Below, piece after piece: positions 12,257-20,101 of a stretch of DNA of 64,000 nucleotides. The notes under the pieces are model-generated. The model was not told the DNA's origin. It did not search any database and saw only the letters and a list, made by a program, of their open reading frames with translations. The translations under genes and the position numbers were made by a program. Position 1 is the stretch's first letter. Each line of letters begins with the position of its first letter. The DNA is from Chloroflexota bacterium (GTDB taxonomy: Bacteria; Chloroflexota; UBA11872; VXOZ01): positions 124,001-188,000 of the forward strand of contig CATQHC010000005.1 of the NCBI GenBank assembly GCA_958295775.1. The letters run 5' to 3'.

Positions 12257-13290
12257 TCTAGACTCACAAACGAAGTGCAACACTTTGCTAAGGTGTTGCC
12301 ATGGGAAAGAGATACACGCATTTTACCATTGAAGAGCGGTGTGAAGTGGCCAGACTTCTCGCCGCGGGGCAGTCGCAGCGGAAAATTGCTACAGCTCTGG
12401 ATCGCGCGCCATCGACCATTACGCGGGAGGTAATACGCAATGGGTCCGGGAAGCAGGGGTATCAGGCGAGATATGCCCAGGAACAGGCGTTGGCGCGGCG
12501 TTGGGGCGGCGGCAAGCTGGAGCGAGATGCTGCCTTGCGGGAGGTGGTGCTGGGATACTTGCGAGCTGGCTGGTCGCCGGAGCAGGTATCCGGACGCTTG
12601 GCGCGGGACGCCAGCGGCCCGGTCATCTCCCACGAGACCATCTATCGCTTTATCTACGCGCAAATGGCACGCACCAAGGACTACACGTGGCGGCACTACC
12701 TGCCGCGGGGCAAGTCCAAACGCGGCTGGCGGGGGCGCAGAGGCGGCAGTCCGGCCTCGTTCATTGCCCAGCGCCGACCGCTGGCAGAACGGCCCCAGAC
12801 GGCGGCAGACCGCCAATCCCCCGGTCATTGGGAGGTGGACCTGATGCTCTTTCGCACCTACGGCCAAGCCGTCTTGACCTTGCACGAGCGCCACTCGCGC
12901 TTGCTCATCGCCACGCGACCGCCCGGCAAGGCCGCCGAACCTATCGCCACTGCCATGCACGACCTGTTCGCTTCCTTGCCTCCAGAGTGGCGTCAAACCG
13001 CCACCTTCGACAACGGCACCGAGTTCGCGCGCCACTACCGCCTCCATGACCTGGGGATGCAGACCTTCTTCTGCGACACCCACTCTCCCTGGCAGAAAGG
13101 CGGCATCGAAAATGCTATCGGGCGCCTGCGGCGCGGGCTGCCGCGCAAGACCGATCTGGCGACCGTAACCGAGGAACGCTTTGCGCAACTCGTGCAGGCC
13201 TACAACCACACCCCGCGCAAGTGTCTTGACTACCAAACGCCAGCAGAAGTATTCATGAACCAAGTGTTGCACTTGAAATGTGAGTCCACC
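12257..13290 (+). mobile_element. IS30-family insertion sequence, copy 1 (1034 bp)
   Basis: Flanked by GGATTC (12251-12256) and TTCCCGCG (13291 on), giving a 3-base TTC duplication if it entered a family C palindrome. Terminal inverted repeats share GACTCACA and AAGTGCAACACTT, separated by four mismatches (left 12261-12285, right near 13262-13286). Copy 2 at 61529-62562 has the same length and appears identical by eye. Only one gene, the transposase, is inside. Confidence 0.9.
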
Positions 13291-13311
13291 TTCCCGCGTG
13301 CGCGGGAATGA
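12301..13311 (+). CDS. IS30-family transposase
   Basis: A 336-residue DDE transposase. The N-terminal helix-turn-helix region (HFTIEERCEVARLLAAGQS, about 7-25) is followed by an IS30-type HTH and the catalytic core: Asp in HWEVDLM (about 181), Asp in TFDNGTEF (about 239) and Glu in GGIENAIGRLRRG (about 271). It lacks a stop codon inside the element. Codons 1-330 lie within the insertion sequence; the last six residues, FPRARE, and the TGA are read from the flanking palindrome. The encoded protein is identical to copy 2 except for the last residue (Glu here, Ala there), which is outside the element. It looks intact, so recent movement is likely. Confidence 0.93.
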   Translation: MGKRYTHFTIEERCEVARLLAAGQSQRKIATALDRAPSTITREVIRNGSGKQGYQARYAQEQALARRWGGGKLERDAALREVVLGYLRAGWSPEQVSGRLARDASGPVISHETIYRFIYAQMARTKDYTWRHYLPRGKSKRGWRGRRGGSPASFIAQRRPLAERPQTAADRQSPGHWEVDLMLFRTYGQAVLTLHERHSRLLIATRPPGKAAEPIATAMHDLFASLPPEWRQTATFDNGTEFARHYRLHDLGMQTFFCDTHSPWQKGGIENAIGRLRRGLPRKTDLATVTEERFAQLVQAYNHTPRKCLDYQTPAEVFMNQVLHLKCESTFPRARE

Positions 13312-13608: not shown

Positions 13609-15861
13609 TCAGGCTAGCGATTCTTTCATCTCCGCCGGTTCGGCGATGTTGGTGGGAGTGGGTCGCGCGCCAAAGTCGCGCCAGCCCCAGTCCACGTGTA
13701 TTCGGGGCAAGTCGAATTCGTAGTACCAGCGAATGCTGACCGGCCAGCCGTCGCGAGCGTAGAACGCGTAGAACAACGCCGCGCGGCCCGGGGCTTCTGC
13801 CAAGAGTCCCACCGGCGTCAAGTCTCGGAATAGCGCCGGGTCTTCTTCGATCTCCAAGTATGTCATGAGATCGGCTTGATATTGCTCGGCAGCGTTGGGC
13901 CGGAGCAGCGAAAGGTCCACCGGCTCGTGGGCGTTCCAGAGCGGCAGGCTGGGACTAGGCGCGGCGCTGCCGTCGGCGCAGGAAACCCATACCGGCGTGC
14001 TCCACGCGTACTCGCCGTCGCTCTGGCGGAGGCGCACATAATACGCGCCTTCGCCCAGGGGTTGCTCGTCAGTGTGGTACAGCGTGGCATCCAACGTGCT
14101 GGGAAACCACGCTGCCAGGCAGCGGTTGCCTCTGATCAAGTCCACCCGCTCGATTTGGGCGCAGGCGTGGGCACGAATGTGCACGTCTACTACTCCGTCA
14201 GACTCGATGATGCTCCCGGCAGGTTCGCCGTTTGCGCTCACGTCCAGGATGATGCGCGCGCCGGTCGTGGCGAAAGTGCGGCGGTCACGGATAGCTTGCC
14301 AAATGGCCTCCCGCTCGCAGGCGGCGGCGAAAACTCCGGCTGCCTGCCCGCTGCCAAACGCCGTATCGCGGATGTTGAGTTCGTGGTTGAAGCGTCCCCG
14401 GAAACAATGCGCTGCCATGGGCGCGCCGAGCGTGGGCAGGTGCACGTCGCTGGAGCCGATGACCGCCGGATGGTAGCCGTGGCGGAGCGCCCGCTGCAGT
14501 ACCCATTCGAACGCGCCGTGGCCGCTGGTGATCTCCAGCAGCGGCGCTTCTTTGGTGGGATATGCCGTCCAGTTGGGCGGGCCGCCGCCGATGTGGGCTT
14601 CCAAGAGCACGTCAGCGCGTGCGCCGTAGGTCGCCATCACGTCGTTCATGGCAGCTTTCATTGGCAGATGGGTTGCTTCATGTCCGAGAAACACCACGTT
14701 GCGGTCGCCGCCTGTGCCGGGATGCGCCTCGTAAGCGAGAAACGGCACATACGTGCCCGGCTCGTCATTGGCGCGAAAGGCTGCCTGGTGGGCCTGCCAG
14801 ACCTCGGGACGGTCCTCGTCATTGGGCGCGGACATCGGACCCGGAGCACAGAAGTCCAGGCGGCCCACTTGCCGCGCCTGGTCATGCCGTCGAGCGGGAT
14901 GCACCTTGAAATTCGGCTCGCTCATCAGCGCGAGCGTGGTGTCGCCCCAGCTATGGCAATGCAACTCGCCCCAATACAGGCGTCTGCTCGGCTCCGGCTC
15001 GCAGCGCGTGGGATTGCTCAGCGCCTGCAGGCCGTTTCGCTCGTCCGTGGCAGTGAAACGATAGAGCCCAGGTGACGTGAGGCGCACGTCTTCGACAATC
15101 AGGATGCCCTGTTCCTGCGTCGTGAACGAGACACTTGGCGGGAGGATGTCATGTGATCCAGCGGAGCCGGCCAGGGTCACCGTGCCCCGGTACTGGTCGC
15201 ACACGTTGCGATGCCGGTCGAAGGCAATGAGATGGAGGGCGAACGGCTCATTTGGCGCGACTATCGAGGGGCCAAGCACGCGCAGCATGTCGGCGTGGGG
15301 TTCCGACGTAATCCGAACAGTCGCGGGACTGCAGGCGAGCGTGCGGTAGGTCCCGCTGCCGGTGCGGTCTACCGCGAATACGAAACTCCCAAGGGTCGTG
15401 GCGTCGTAGACCTCGCTGCCGGCGCCGCCCTGGCGGCGGTCTCCCACCCGCAGGGTGAAGCGGTCGCCCGGTGCGAGCACGCCAGCCGTCACCACCACCT
15501 GGGCAAAGCTCGGCCGGTGGGACTGGTTGAGCGAATTCACGACCAGGCGCAGGTTCGCCGCCGCATTGGATTCAAGGGTGACGTAGTCACGCCCCGGCGG
15601 GTTGTAGTCCTGGACGCGGTGCCCGAGCAGAAAGCCGAGACGCTGAAAGAGGAAGCCGCCGCCGGCCGGCACGGTTTCGCGGACGGTGACCGTAAGCTCC
15701 CAGGTGCCGACGCGACCCGCCGGGAGAGTGAGCGCCAAGCCGCGGTCTGTCGCGCCGTCGCTGCCGCGAAAGGCAACGTCGCACCGGTCGGGCTCGGCGG
15801 CGGGCACGGGTTGGATTTCGATTGACACCCGCTGGGGGATTGCACGCGCCACGGATCGCAT
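13609..15861 (-). CDS. DUF3604 family protein (PHP-like predicted metallohydrolase)
   Basis: A 750-residue protein. The N-terminal 270 residues look like beta-sandwich domains. The DUF3604 part begins with the signature YWGELHCHSWGD at about residue 293, continues with RRHDQARQVGRLDF, VPFLAYEAHPGTGGDRNVVF and LLEAHIGGGPPNW, and includes IGSSDVHLPT near residue 480. The spaced His/Asp residues suggest a PHP-type metal site, but no reaction has been established for the family to my knowledge. There is no signal peptide. The start at 15861 is uncertain because TTTAGGG sits very close to it. It is transcribed away from the tRNA region and towards IS30 copy 1. Confidence 0.8.
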   Translation of the reverse strand: MRSVARAIPQRVSIEIQPVPAAEPDRCDVAFRGSDGATDRGLALTLPAGRVGTWELTVTVRETVPAGGGFLFQRLGFLLGHRVQDYNPPGRDYVTLESNAAANLRLVVNSLNQSHRPSFAQVVVTAGVLAPGDRFTLRVGDRRQGGAGSEVYDATTLGSFVFAVDRTGSGTYRTLACSPATVRITSEPHADMLRVLGPSIVAPNEPFALHLIAFDRHRNVCDQYRGTVTLAGSAGSHDILPPSVSFTTQEQGILIVEDVRLTSPGLYRFTATDERNGLQALSNPTRCEPEPSRRLYWGELHCHSWGDTTLALMSEPNFKVHPARRHDQARQVGRLDFCAPGPMSAPNDEDRPEVWQAHQAAFRANDEPGTYVPFLAYEAHPGTGGDRNVVFLGHEATHLPMKAAMNDVMATYGARADVLLEAHIGGGPPNWTAYPTKEAPLLEITSGHGAFEWVLQRALRHGYHPAVIGSSDVHLPTLGAPMAAHCFRGRFNHELNIRDTAFGSGQAAGVFAAACEREAIWQAIRDRRTFATTGARIILDVSANGEPAGSIIESDGVVDVHIRAHACAQIERVDLIRGNRCLAAWFPSTLDATLYHTDEQPLGEGAYYVRLRQSDGEYAWSTPVWVSCADGSAAPSPSLPLWNAHEPVDLSLLRPNAAEQYQADLMTYLEIEEDPALFRDLTPVGLLAEAPGRAALFYAFYARDGWPVSIRWYYEFDLPRIHVDWGWRDFGARPTPTNIAEPAEMKESLA

Positions 15862-16090: not shown

Positions 16091-16427
16091 GTGTACTAAG
16101 GTACGAGAACCACGTACTTCGCTTGAAGACCACAAACTTCGGTCAAGGGGCGAATTTGCGACGTGAAAATGCGCCTGTGCACACACTTGAATTATAGGAG
16201 TGGCGCGGAAATAGGGTCAAGCACACAGCGGCGCCATTGCCTCAGTGCGCACCTTGTGTCAAACTCCACCATTGGGCGAATCGCGCGGAGAAAGCGCGCT
16301 TGCCGGGGCGTGCGCGGTATTGGAATTGGCTTAGCCGGCAGTAAATGCCGTCAGGGAATCAGCGAAATGAATCCCAAGGGTGTTGGCTGGTGGCTGAAGG
16401 CGTATGATAGAGAGGGAGGTTTGATTC
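16091..16427. other. Gap between tRNA-Thr and the glutamate-synthase-like operon
   Basis: No open frame here looks coding. It must hold the promoters of both the tRNA (minus strand) and the operon (plus strand). The only strong signal is GGGAGG just before the GTG at 16428. Confidence 0.5.
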
Positions 16428-17384
16428 GTGTACGGGGTTGTCGGCTATCTTGATCGCACGGGCAATGGCTCTGCGCCAATCGGCAATATCGCTTTGAAGA
16501 TGTTGCGTTCCCTCTCGCCGTATGCTCCCGATTCAACTGGGGCCGCGTTCTTTGTCCCACAGACGCACGGTCAGGTCCTAGTAGCCGTGAAAATAGAAGG
16601 TGACGACGTGCGCACGCTGAGCGGGCGCGTCGTGCGGCGGGTGGGGCGCAAGGCAAACGTCCTGAAGTCGCGCATGGTCGGTCACACGCTACAACTCGTG
16701 CTAGATACGGTGGAAGACGTGTACGGAGTTGTGTCCGTTGCCGAAAGCGTGTGCGAGATCGGGGGCGTCGAGTGTTTCAGTGTCGGCCGCCGCCTCAGCA
16801 TCATCAAGGACGTAGGCTCCATCGATCATCTTGAAGAAGAGTACACGCTCTCAGATATTCGCGGTACGCACATGATCGGCCAGGCCCGCATGGCTACGGA
16901 AAGTCGTGTCGATGCGAGCCACTCGCAGCCCTTTTGGGCGCGGCCGCGACCCGACATGGCCGTGGCGCACACCGGACAGATTACCAACTACCATAAGCTC
17001 CGCCGCAAGTATGAGGCGCAAGGCCAACGTTTCTTCACCACGAACGACGCGGAAGTAATCGGCGCTTATCTGGCCATGGAAATGGAACGAGGCGCAACGC
17101 TTGAAGACGCAATGCGCGCGTCGCTCGACGTGCTCGACGGCACCTATGCCTATGTGGCGGCTACCGAAAACGAACTTGGCGCTGCGAAGGACTTCATGGG
17201 CGCGCGCCCGCTTGTCATTGCCGAAACCGATGAATTCGTGGTGGTAAGCTCGGAAGCCGCCGCCGTTTGCGATGGGCTGGAGCAGGAATTGGTGACGTGG
17301 GAGCCTGACGCGAAGGAAGTGCATGTGTGGGCCACACGGACGCCAAGCGCGGCTGACGCGCATGAGCAAACGACATTACCCTAG
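16428..17384 (+). CDS. Class II glutamine amidotransferase-like subunit without the catalytic Cys
   Basis: A 318-residue protein with the Ntn glutaminase fold, like the amidotransferase subunit of split glutamate synthases and of the GlxB/MgsA proteins of N-methylglutamate synthase. The GTG start has GGGAGG eight bases upstream. Family members start M-C-G-I-x-G with Cys as the nucleophile; here the protein starts MYGVVGYLD, so Tyr replaces it. The substrate loop is recognisable in IGQARMATES (usually GHTR), but the oxyanion motif HNG reads HTG in AVAHTGQITNYH (about residue 185). With two key residues changed, glutamine hydrolysis is unlikely. It overlaps the next gene by 23 bases, so the two are translated from one operon. 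Confidence 0.82.
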   Translation: MYGVVGYLDRTGNGSAPIGNIALKMLRSLSPYAPDSTGAAFFVPQTHGQVLVAVKIEGDDVRTLSGRVVRRVGRKANVLKSRMVGHTLQLVLDTVEDVYGVVSVAESVCEIGGVECFSVGRRLSIIKDVGSIDHLEEEYTLSDIRGTHMIGQARMATESRVDASHSQPFWARPRPDMAVAHTGQITNYHKLRRKYEAQGQRFFTTNDAEVIGAYLAMEMERGATLEDAMRASLDVLDGTYAYVAATENELGAAKDFMGARPLVIAETDEFVVVSSEAAAVCDGLEQELVTWEPDAKEVHVWATRTPSAADAHEQTTLP

Positions 17385-18057
17385 TAATTTAATGTTCTTC
17401 ATCGAAGCCGTTGACCGTACTACCCGCGAAGTAAACCAGCTCATCCGCCACGCGATCGAGCAGGGGCAGCACGACATCCACGTATACGACCCGCGGGGCC
17501 GCCACAGTCTCGGGGTAGCGTTGTTCCAGCAGGTGCATCTCATCTTTGCCGGGAGCGTGGGCTTCTATTGCGGCGCCATGGGCGACGGGCCTACGGTCGA
17601 AATCCACGGCAGCGCGGGCTGGAGCACGGGAGAAGGGCTCCAGAGCGGGAGTGTCGTTGTACGCGGCAACGCGGGGAACGCCACAGGCGCCGCCATTCAC
17701 GGGGGCAGCGTATGCGTGCATGGCAGCGCGGCCGCCCGCACCGGAATCGCAATGAATGGTGGTATGGTGGTTGTGGGGGGAAACGTGGGGTACATGAGCG
17801 GCTTCATGATGCATCAAGGCGATCTCATAGTCTGCGGCAACGCGAGCGAACGCCTGGGTCACGGCATGGACGGCGGCCGCATCTTTGTCGCGGGAGCGGT
17901 GAAGCAGCTCGGCGAAGGCGTAGTGGAATCCGAAGTCACGGGGCAAGAACGTGACCACGTGGAAGGATTTGTCGCAACCGCCGGACTTTCTCACGCGCGT
18001 CCGTTCCGCAAGTTTTGCGCCGGTGGCGTGGAAAATGCCCTACGCACTGGAGGCTGA
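17362..18057 (+). CDS. GXGXG-domain subunit of glutamate-synthase-like enzyme
   Basis: A 231-residue protein made almost wholly of the GXGXG (GltB C-terminal type) right-handed beta-helix: SVGFYCGAMGDGPTVEIHG, GSVVVRGNAGNATGAAIHGG, GGMVVVGGNVGYMSGFMMHQ and GRIFVAGAVKQLGEGVVE. In glutamate synthase this domain is structural and positions the ammonia tunnel; here it is a separate subunit, like GlxC/MgsB. The start at ATG 17362 overlaps the previous gene by 23 bases, which favours coupling. ATG 17392 is an alternative; neither has a good ribosome binding site. It is the middle gene of three in one operon. Confidence 0.85.
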   Translation: MSKRHYPSNLMFFIEAVDRTTREVNQLIRHAIEQGQHDIHVYDPRGRHSLGVALFQQVHLIFAGSVGFYCGAMGDGPTVEIHGSAGWSTGEGLQSGSVVVRGNAGNATGAAIHGGSVCVHGSAAARTGIAMNGGMVVVGGNVGYMSGFMMHQGDLIVCGNASERLGHGMDGGRIFVAGAVKQLGEGVVESEVTGQERDHVEGFVATAGLSHARPFRKFCAGGVENALRTGG

Positions 18058-18065
18058 TACCAGTC

Positions 18066-19370
18066 ATGGATTCGTTGGAGAAGACTGAAGGTACGCCGTA
18101 TACCCCACAGGTGTATGCCGAGATACAAGAGAAGGCGGAGTCCGGTCATTTTCGTGTGGTGGGCACCGGCAGGTCACGGAGTCTCCCGACGTTCGATGAC
18201 CTCACTTTGATCCCCTGCTCGCTGAGCCGGGTGCCCTTGGAAGCATTTTACGAGCAGTGCACGACGACCACCACCCTGGGGACCCGCTTTGCCGCGCAAC
18301 CGTTGGAGCTGAGCACGCCGGTAACCATTGCCGGCATGGGCGCGAAACTGCTGCCGCAGGCGGTGCGGGCGGCGCTGGCGTACGGGGCGGCGCGAGCCGG
18401 AATTCTCTACACCACCGGTCACGGGGGTATGCTGGCCGCTGAGCGGGAGTATGCCAAGCTACTGTCCTATGAGGTGCTGCCCAGCCGCATCGGCTTCAAT
18501 CCGCGGCACCTCATCCGGGCCGACGTCATCGAGCTTGTCAGCGTGCGCGGCGTGAGCCCAAGTATCGGTATGCCGCAGCAAGACGACCAAGGCCCGGGGC
18601 AGCCGTTGGGTTCGGCCCAAGAAACTGCCTATTCGCGGCTCTCGCATTCGCCGACGCGCCACCCCGATTGGGTGGGGCCGGACGATCTGCCCAAGAAGGT
18701 GGAGGAATTGCGGGAAGCTACCGACTGGCAGGCGCCAATCATCGTCAAGATTAGTGCGGCGCATGTATTCGATGACGTCCAGCTTGCGGCCAAGGCGGGT
18801 GCGGACATTGTAACCGTGGAAGGGATGGAGGCCGGCGCCTCAACCGGACCGGCAATACTCAACGAGCATACCGGCGTGCCCGGAATTGCCGCGGTTTGCC
18901 AGGCGCGGCGCGCGTTAGAGGTGCTGGGGCTTGAGGACGAAGTCAATCTGATACTCTGCGGCGGCATCCGCAGCGGCGCCGACGTCGCCAAAGCGCTCGC
19001 GCTGGGTGCGGACGCCGTCTCCATCGGCACTGCGGCGCTGGTTTCCTTGGAGCCGTGGGCCGGGCAGGTAACCGCGCAAGGCGAGGAAGCTGGCGCGGCG
19101 CAGTGTGCAGACTATGCTGCTTCGGCCGAAGAAAGGGACTCTGCACCGCCGCCGAATTTACCGGCCGACCTGCCGGGATTCGATGAGGCGGCGTACCGCC
19201 TGGCGAACTTCATCACCTCTCTAACGCAGGAAATCCAACTGCTGGCGCGGGCGTGCGGCAAAGCCAACGTGCATGACCTCGAAGCCGAAGACCTGCGTGC
19301 GCTTAGCCTTGAGGCCTCATTGATCACCAACGTCCCGCTGGTGGGCATGGAAACCGTGGTTGGGCGCTGA
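18066..19370 (+). CDS. FMN-domain subunit of glutamate-synthase-like enzyme, Fe-S site not visible
   Basis: A 434-residue TIM-barrel protein corresponding to the FMN domain of glutamate synthase (GlxD/MgsC type). Seen: an N-terminal linker with SRSLPTFDDLTLIP, GAARAGILYTTGHGG, APIIVKISAAHVFDDVQLAA, the signature VEGMEAGASTGP (about residue 257) and the FMN-phosphate loop LILCGGIRSGADVAKALALG (about 300). After GADAVSIGTAAL, normal members have three closely spaced cysteines binding a [3Fe-4S] cluster; here only one Cys follows, in AAQCADYAASAEERD. The electron-transfer cluster therefore seems lost. The start, ATG 18066, is 8 bases after the previous stop. No GltD-like partner is nearby. Confidence 0.82.
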   Translation: MDSLEKTEGTPYTPQVYAEIQEKAESGHFRVVGTGRSRSLPTFDDLTLIPCSLSRVPLEAFYEQCTTTTTLGTRFAAQPLELSTPVTIAGMGAKLLPQAVRAALAYGAARAGILYTTGHGGMLAAEREYAKLLSYEVLPSRIGFNPRHLIRADVIELVSVRGVSPSIGMPQQDDQGPGQPLGSAQETAYSRLSHSPTRHPDWVGPDDLPKKVEELREATDWQAPIIVKISAAHVFDDVQLAAKAGADIVTVEGMEAGASTGPAILNEHTGVPGIAAVCQARRALEVLGLEDEVNLILCGGIRSGADVAKALALGADAVSIGTAALVSLEPWAGQVTAQGEEAGAAQCADYAASAEERDSAPPPNLPADLPGFDEAAYRLANFITSLTQEIQLLARACGKANVHDLEAEDLRALSLEASLITNVPLVGMETVVGR

Positions 19371-19543: not shown

Positions 19544-20101
19544 TTGGCAGCAACAGCAGTAGAGCCGCCTCCCAATCGCCAGGAATCCGTTGACCGCATT
19601 ACGCCGGTCGTAAGCAGTATGTCGCGGCGCAGGATCGATCGGCTGGTATTGCGCAAGTATCTGCGGCGGCTAGTCACGCTTGTCCTCTGGCCTTCAATCG
19701 ACATAGTCGTAACGATTCTTTCCAACTACCTGATCTTGCGATTCAATGGGTTTGTTGCCACGGCAGCTACCATCCTGTTGATGATTGTCCTCAACGGTGC
19801 GCTTCTCTACCTGCTCATGCTCGAGCTCGATTTTTCCGACTGGATCCGCGCCAAGACCGAACGCTTGCAGAAGATTCGCAGGTTCGTGCACGCGACGGAT
19901 AGGCGGCGCGACCTCCTCATCCTGCTGGTGTACACCTTCTCCGGCCCCACCATGGCAGGAGTGCCGCTCATCTGGCTCATGGGAATCACAGGCAGACGTG
20001 CCTATTCCCTTGTGGTCATCGGCACCACCCTGAACGGCATCTTCTGGGTGGGCGCGATCTACAGCAGCATCTGGGCCATTCTGCGCGGGCTGATTGGGTG
20101 A
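19544..20101 (+). CDS. Hypothetical multi-pass membrane protein
   Basis: About 185 residues with no recognised family. Hydrophobic spans at roughly 44-62 (LVTLVLWPSIDIVVTILSNY), 70-92 (FVATAATILLMIVLNGALLY), 125-147 (LLILLVYTFSGPTMAGVPL) and 158-180. Two basic stretches (SRRRIDRLVLRKYLRRL and RAKTERLQKIRRFVHATDRRR) should face the cytoplasm. The start is uncertain: TTG 19544 follows GGAAGAAAC, while ATG 19620 begins just before the first basic stretch. It stands alone, 173 bases after the FMN subunit. Confidence 0.6.
   Translation: MAATAVEPPPNRQESVDRITPVVSSMSRRRIDRLVLRKYLRRLVTLVLWPSIDIVVTILSNYLILRFNGFVATAATILLMIVLNGALLYLLMLELDFSDWIRAKTERLQKIRRFVHATDRRRDLLILLVYTFSGPTMAGVPLIWLMGITGRRAYSLVVIGTTLNGIFWVGAIYSSIWAILRGLIG

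Follow-up and report, generated by a model that had tools for sequence, protein, structure and literature searches.

What does a glutamate synthase-like complex do once the residues of its glutaminase, 2-oxoglutarate and iron-sulfur centres have been replaced? The question is raised by three adjoining genes in a 64,000-nucleotide stretch of Chloroflexota DNA (the window), which were read in the initial annotation as an operon that had lost both its glutaminase nucleophile and its Fe-S ligands. The genes follow the same three-subunit order (GATase, GXGXG, FMN barrel) as MgsABC/GlxBCD of Aminobacter (L120), of Rhizobium (L072), and of an intact paralog (L037) in the genome from which the window comes.

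The three subunits and their lost catalytic residues

Subunit A (16428..17384, on the + strand as are all features of the operon given below; 318 aa) is a class II glutamine-amidotransferase-like protein related to GlxB/MgsA, and matches Pfam GATase_7 (4.6e-18) and GATase_6, but with its glutaminase residues lost. Subunit B (17392..18057; 221 aa; Pfam GXGXG, 2.1e-17) is a GXGXG beta-helix protein related to GlxC/MgsB, and subunit C (18066..19370; 434 aa; Pfam Glu_synthase, 1.2e-50) an FMN-barrel protein related to GlxD/MgsC. The start of A is a conserved GTG at 16428, preceded at a distance of 8 nt by a Shine-Dalgarno-like GGGAGG (16414..16419); comparable purine-rich stretches precede the GTG or ATG of A in four other species. 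The starts of B (ATG 17392, MFFIEAV) and C (ATG 18066, MDSLEK) were chosen by conservation. The gaps between A and B and between B and C are 7 and 8 nt, respectively, so that the genes nearly touch, as had been suggested, without overlapping, which had been offered as the alternative. No convincing promoter or terminator of the operon was found. A small hydrophobic protein with no Pfam match (19544..20101, + strand) is always encoded 3' of the variant operon in the genus (synteny with genomes G001-G004); with a conserved position but a 174-nt gap from C, it is a candidate member of the operon. The neighbourhood also encodes a DUF3604 protein, solute-binding proteins, a sulfatase and a hydrolase, and gives no pointer to a substrate. 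An IS30-like element (12261-13286; HTH_38/rve transposase, 12301-13311; 25-nt inverted repeats, 84% complementary) sits between two genes that are ~270 nt apart in G001.

The N-terminus of A reads MYGVVGY, and its equivalent of the HNG motif reads AHTGQ. Tyr2 (TAC, 16431..16433) stands at the position of the nucleophile Cys and Thr182 (16971..16973) at that of the oxyanion-hole Asn. Tyr occupies the first position in all five variants and Thr or Ala the second (HTG, or HAG in G001), whereas Cys and Asn are found in all 20 intact relatives examined and in E. coli GltB. Since in-frame stops lie just 5' of the start of A, a longer N-terminus cannot supply the Cys; before a Tyr, the initiator Met is normally left in place by methionine aminopeptidase. 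The RG of RGPDS is also gone in 5/5 variants (R32 replaced by Tyr or His, G33 by Ala). When aligned with the 20 intact relatives and E. coli GltB, A was seen to retain R154, T157, H181, G183 and D207. The glutamine-clamp residues Arg154 and Asp207, which from the alignment we take to be the equivalents of GlmS R73 and D123, are present in every variant A. Compared to PurF and GlmS, A matches across the glutaminase domain and keeps the Arg, Thr, Gly and Asp of the glutamine site, but has neither the nucleophile Cys nor the oxyanion Asn. As judged from its sequence, the A-B-C complex cannot cut glutamine or release ammonia from it in the usual way, which agrees with the original proposal. A further cysteine of A, C116 (16773-16775), is fixed in the variant and absent at that position in the intact paralog of the genus.

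In the alignment, subunit B was without the conserved C-terminal tail (W/Y-N-F motif) of its relatives. In subunit C, the Lys of VK, the glycines of GGIR and the Gly of IGT are kept in 6/6 variants, as is the Met of GMS. Both glycines of the FMN-phosphate motif GGIRSG (18960..18977) are invariant in the six variants and 20 relatives, and the complex probably still binds FMN. Directly before the GG of this motif lies C298 (18957-18959), which is fixed in the variant and absent there in the intact paralog.

The 2-oxoglutarate site of C was compared to that of ferredoxin-type GltS (Fd-GltS), in which E903, Q969, K972 and R992 are presumably the 2-oxoglutarate-binding or synthase-site residues; a residue count along the PDB chain agreed with this numbering. 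The position of Glu903 is taken by His119 (18420..18422), with His in four variants and Tyr in two, against Asp in 18 relatives and Glu in two. QGAK, the Q and K of which (Gln969 and Lys972) were found in 20/20 relatives, is replaced by R161-G-V-S164 (18546..18557), and this Arg and Ser are common to all six variants. At the Arg992 position (18618..18620), which falls in a loop whose length varies, the Arg has been lost; the variants have Gln, Lys or Pro there and all 20 relatives Arg. QGAKPGxGG and the other residues of the site are thus found in none of the six variant C proteins, and E. coli GltB has all four of the residues that they have lost. With these replacements, the usual mode of 2-oxoglutarate binding is very probably closed to the complex.

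The former [3Fe-4S] loop (19044..19172) contains no ligand cysteine and varies in both sequence and length. The ligands C-x5-C-x4-C are absent from all six variants, and the lone Cys347 of the window's C (19104-19106) is neither aligned with them nor conserved. From these alignments the complex is predicted to be one that cannot hold a [3Fe-4S] cluster or pass electrons through one, and in this, too, the initial annotation is borne out. Its statement that MgsABC/GlxBCD proteins normally keep the cluster ligands needs correction, as the cluster cysteines are absent from five of the six proteobacterial GlxD/MgsC sets examined, in which Cys2 and HNG are kept; loss of the cluster alone therefore has a precedent in the family. 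The five (L072, L074, L119, L120 and L121) have a AYDDWHEGKDPAG-type loop. The cysteines are kept in Aquabacterium (L073) and in nearly all Chloroflexota members, and the GlxD/MgsC family is likely to be split in cofactor content.

C has 156 near-invariant positions: the variants keep 93 of these, 23 carry a new residue that is fixed in all variants, and 40 are replaced or lost with no such fixation. Many of the fixed new residues lie near the former substrate site (R161, S164, T187, A188, H194, H233, E252, A258 and T260), and the unfixed positions include the cluster loop. Such a pattern would be expected if the barrel had been re-used and the cluster loop discarded. Structure predictions of C and A, in which four sequences were used, had a mean pLDDT of 45 and 38, respectively, too poor to place the fixed residues in a pocket.

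Taken together, the variant differs from MgsABC/GlxBCD in lacking Cys2, the oxyanion Asn, the RG of RGPDS, QGAK, the equivalents of E903 and R992, and the tail of B; its identity to the intact Chloroflexota sets is about 29-45% for A, 36-45% for B and 43-52% for C. GltB (Azospirillum, 1EA0/2VDC; Synechocystis Fd-GltS, 1OFD) has the same kinds of domain and a recognizably homologous FMN barrel. Unlike GltB, the variant is encoded by split genes and its glutaminase, 2-oxoglutarate and [3Fe-4S] residues are all absent; no GltD partner was seen near the operon. Three findings go beyond what had been noted at first: the loss of the 2-oxoglutarate-site residues, the absence of the C-terminal tail from B, and the presence of an intact paralog elsewhere in the genome.

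Distribution, selection and the intact paralog

The three open reading frames, MYGVVGY, HTG and the missing cluster cysteines were as first described, and the same state was found in other species of the genus. Variant A with Tyr2 and HTG or HAG occurs in five species and variant C without cluster cysteines in six, and the clade that shares these features (A in 5/5 variants, C in 6/6) is, as far as sampled, a single genus. In four other species variant A was found at 79-86% identity and with conserved flanking genes; in the sixth only variant C was found, on a contig that appears to end before A. At the thresholds used, 23-24 of 400 sampled Chloroflexota genomes have homologs, and none of those outside the genus is variant-like; Cys and HNG are kept in every homolog outside the genus whose operon was read. 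When peptides conserved in variant C were searched for in a large collection of genomes, matches came from just three loci, all of them in Chloroflexi/Chloroflexota MAGs of the same genus.

The variant genes have mean pairwise dN/dS values (Nei-Gojobori) of 0.090 for A, 0.110 for B and 0.114 for C at a dS of 1.1-1.4, a range in which dS, being above 1, is imprecise; the values for the intact paralog in the same species are 0.064, 0.074 and 0.024. The three variant genes are under purifying selection even though their catalytic residues are lost. The view that this is not simple decay is upheld by these ratios (0.09-0.11) and by the recurrence of the losses in every species of the genus that was sampled. 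Being kept under selection, the operon probably has an FMN-linked job.

An intact paralog is present in all six genomes of the genus; the one in the genome of the window (G000:C2, L037) has MCGIIG, HNG and CHHCHTGRC, and is 43-44% identical to the variant in A and 50% in C. At 8802-17363 of L037 this intact MgsABC-like operon is followed by soxA-, GCV_T- and soxB-like genes, which resemble those of N-methylglutamate dehydrogenase, a gene set that makes an N-methylglutamate pathway probable in this Chloroflexota genus. Another Chloroflexota set is followed by a type III glutamine synthetase, and Aminobacter has the full mgs-glnT-sox gene order; N-methylglutamate pathway genes of this kind have been described (PMC6237917, PMC3160333). 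Neither a gmaS-like or type III glutamine synthetase nor a sarcosine-oxidase-like dehydrogenase lies beside the operon in the window, such linkage being usual but not obligatory. In-frame TAG/TGA codons, which might have indicated recoding in intact paralogs, proved to be ordinary C-terminal stops overrun by the alignment.

When the three subunits were joined for tree building, the variants came out as monophyletic, with a stem length of 1.02 substitutions per site, and branched from among the intact Chloroflexota sets (support 84). All tree neighbours keep the catalytic residues, and the losses in the variant are therefore derived. In separate trees the stems are 0.88 for A, 0.98 for B and 0.97 for C, with an identical sister group. 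The near-equal stems and the common sister group suggest that A, B and C changed jointly, as one complex. That the variant arose recently, by copying of the intact paralog that the genus itself carries, was rejected by an AU test, with the caveat that a long branch can mislead such a test. Segmental duplication of the surrounding region was also rejected, as the similarity between the genes around one operon and those around the other is only about 29%. DUF3604-like proteins are encoded near both operons (13609-15861 in the window; 1507-3867 of L037), and are 29% alike over a short stretch only.

Possible functions of the variant complex

The explanation that we favour, with a probability of roughly 0.45, is that the operon encodes a separate, co-diverged complex, in which the glutaminase-like subunit does not cut and the FMN barrel has acquired a new function. 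Its ancestor would have been a glutamate synthase-like enzyme of the MgsABC/GlxBCD type, from which the three-subunit complex separated and changed its function. Subunit A would still dock on the other two subunits; it may also bind a ligand, be it glutamine, glutamate or something similar, that it does not cut. Subunit C would bind FMN and use it in a redox reaction whose substrate is not 2-oxoglutarate, and electrons would pass directly to or from FMN, bypassing any [3Fe-4S] cluster. A different FMN chemistry was among the options offered at the outset, and is the one that fits best. In its most specific form, that of a whole N-methylglutamate synthase re-tooled into a new cluster-free FMN complex whose substrate is not 2-oxoglutarate and whose A subunit is ligand-binding or structural, we advance the proposal tentatively, as somewhat less than an even chance. 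Several observations run counter to the favoured explanation. No single new residue is fixed at the positions of E903 and R992 in the variants; the dN/dS of C, 0.11 compared to 0.024 in the intact C, fits a reduced catalytic constraint equally; and the kept barrel motifs of C could be structural only.

A second possible explanation, less probable but a serious one, is that A-B-C is a pseudoenzyme complex which, without catalysis, serves as a sensor or regulator that controls or joins the intact MgsABC paralog, for example with glutamine bound in A and FMN in C. The catalytic residues of all three centres are gone while A retains its clamp residues and C its flavin motifs, the intact paralog accompanies the variant in all six genomes, and C is less constrained than its intact counterpart, all of which would suit such a role. 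Dead class II glutaminase domains are known to be kept through a change of function, as in beta-lactam synthetase and AsnB-like proteins, where they are retained for structure; beta-lactam synthetase differs from the variant in its ATP-dependent synthase chemistry and unrelated C domain. A literature search, with subscription papers mostly outside its scope, found no paper on a GlxB/MgsA without its nucleophile. A regulator, however, usually needs one subunit, and here all three have been kept and have changed together; neither a regulatory domain nor a linked regulator was seen in the neighbourhood. It is this joint change of A, B and C that favours a complex with a new FMN function over a regulatory pseudoenzyme.

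That the complex is still a glutamate or N-methylglutamate synthase, fed by free ammonia or an amine and with its FMN reduced directly, was the other option offered in the initial annotation, and we now consider it unlikely. The loss of the glutaminase and the retention of the FMN barrel are compatible with it, the proteobacterial MgsC proteins without cluster cysteines suggest that the cluster is dispensable, and there is a proposal, cited in PMC6237917, that NMGS acts directly on methylamine. What weakens it is the loss, in 6/6 variant C proteins, of the four residues matching the 2-oxoglutarate site, which the 20 relatives conserve and which E. coli GltB also has.

A decaying duplicate, that is, a pseudogene operon on its way out, might account for the many conserved residues lost and for the long stem, but is very improbable: the frames are open, starts, flanking genes and motifs are conserved in up to six species, and a dN/dS of about 0.1 excludes neutral decay despite the imprecise dS. 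A sequencing or assembly artefact or a misread start codon, which a reading of a single genome could not exclude, can be dismissed, given Tyr2 and HTG or HAG in four further assemblies of other species, and given the stops that preclude an N-terminal extension of A.

Implications for the glutamate synthase family

Glutamate synthases are a textbook case of active sites that are coupled through an ammonia tunnel. With its glutaminase, 2-oxoglutarate and cluster residues all lost and its three subunits nevertheless kept under selection, the variant of this genus presents a natural experiment on what the glutamate synthase architecture can do without its chemistry, placed beside an intact paralog. 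For such genes, the automatic names 'glutamine amidotransferase' and 'glutamate synthase' would be misleading. The variant and the intact operon together provide a concrete pair of paralogs for laboratory tests.
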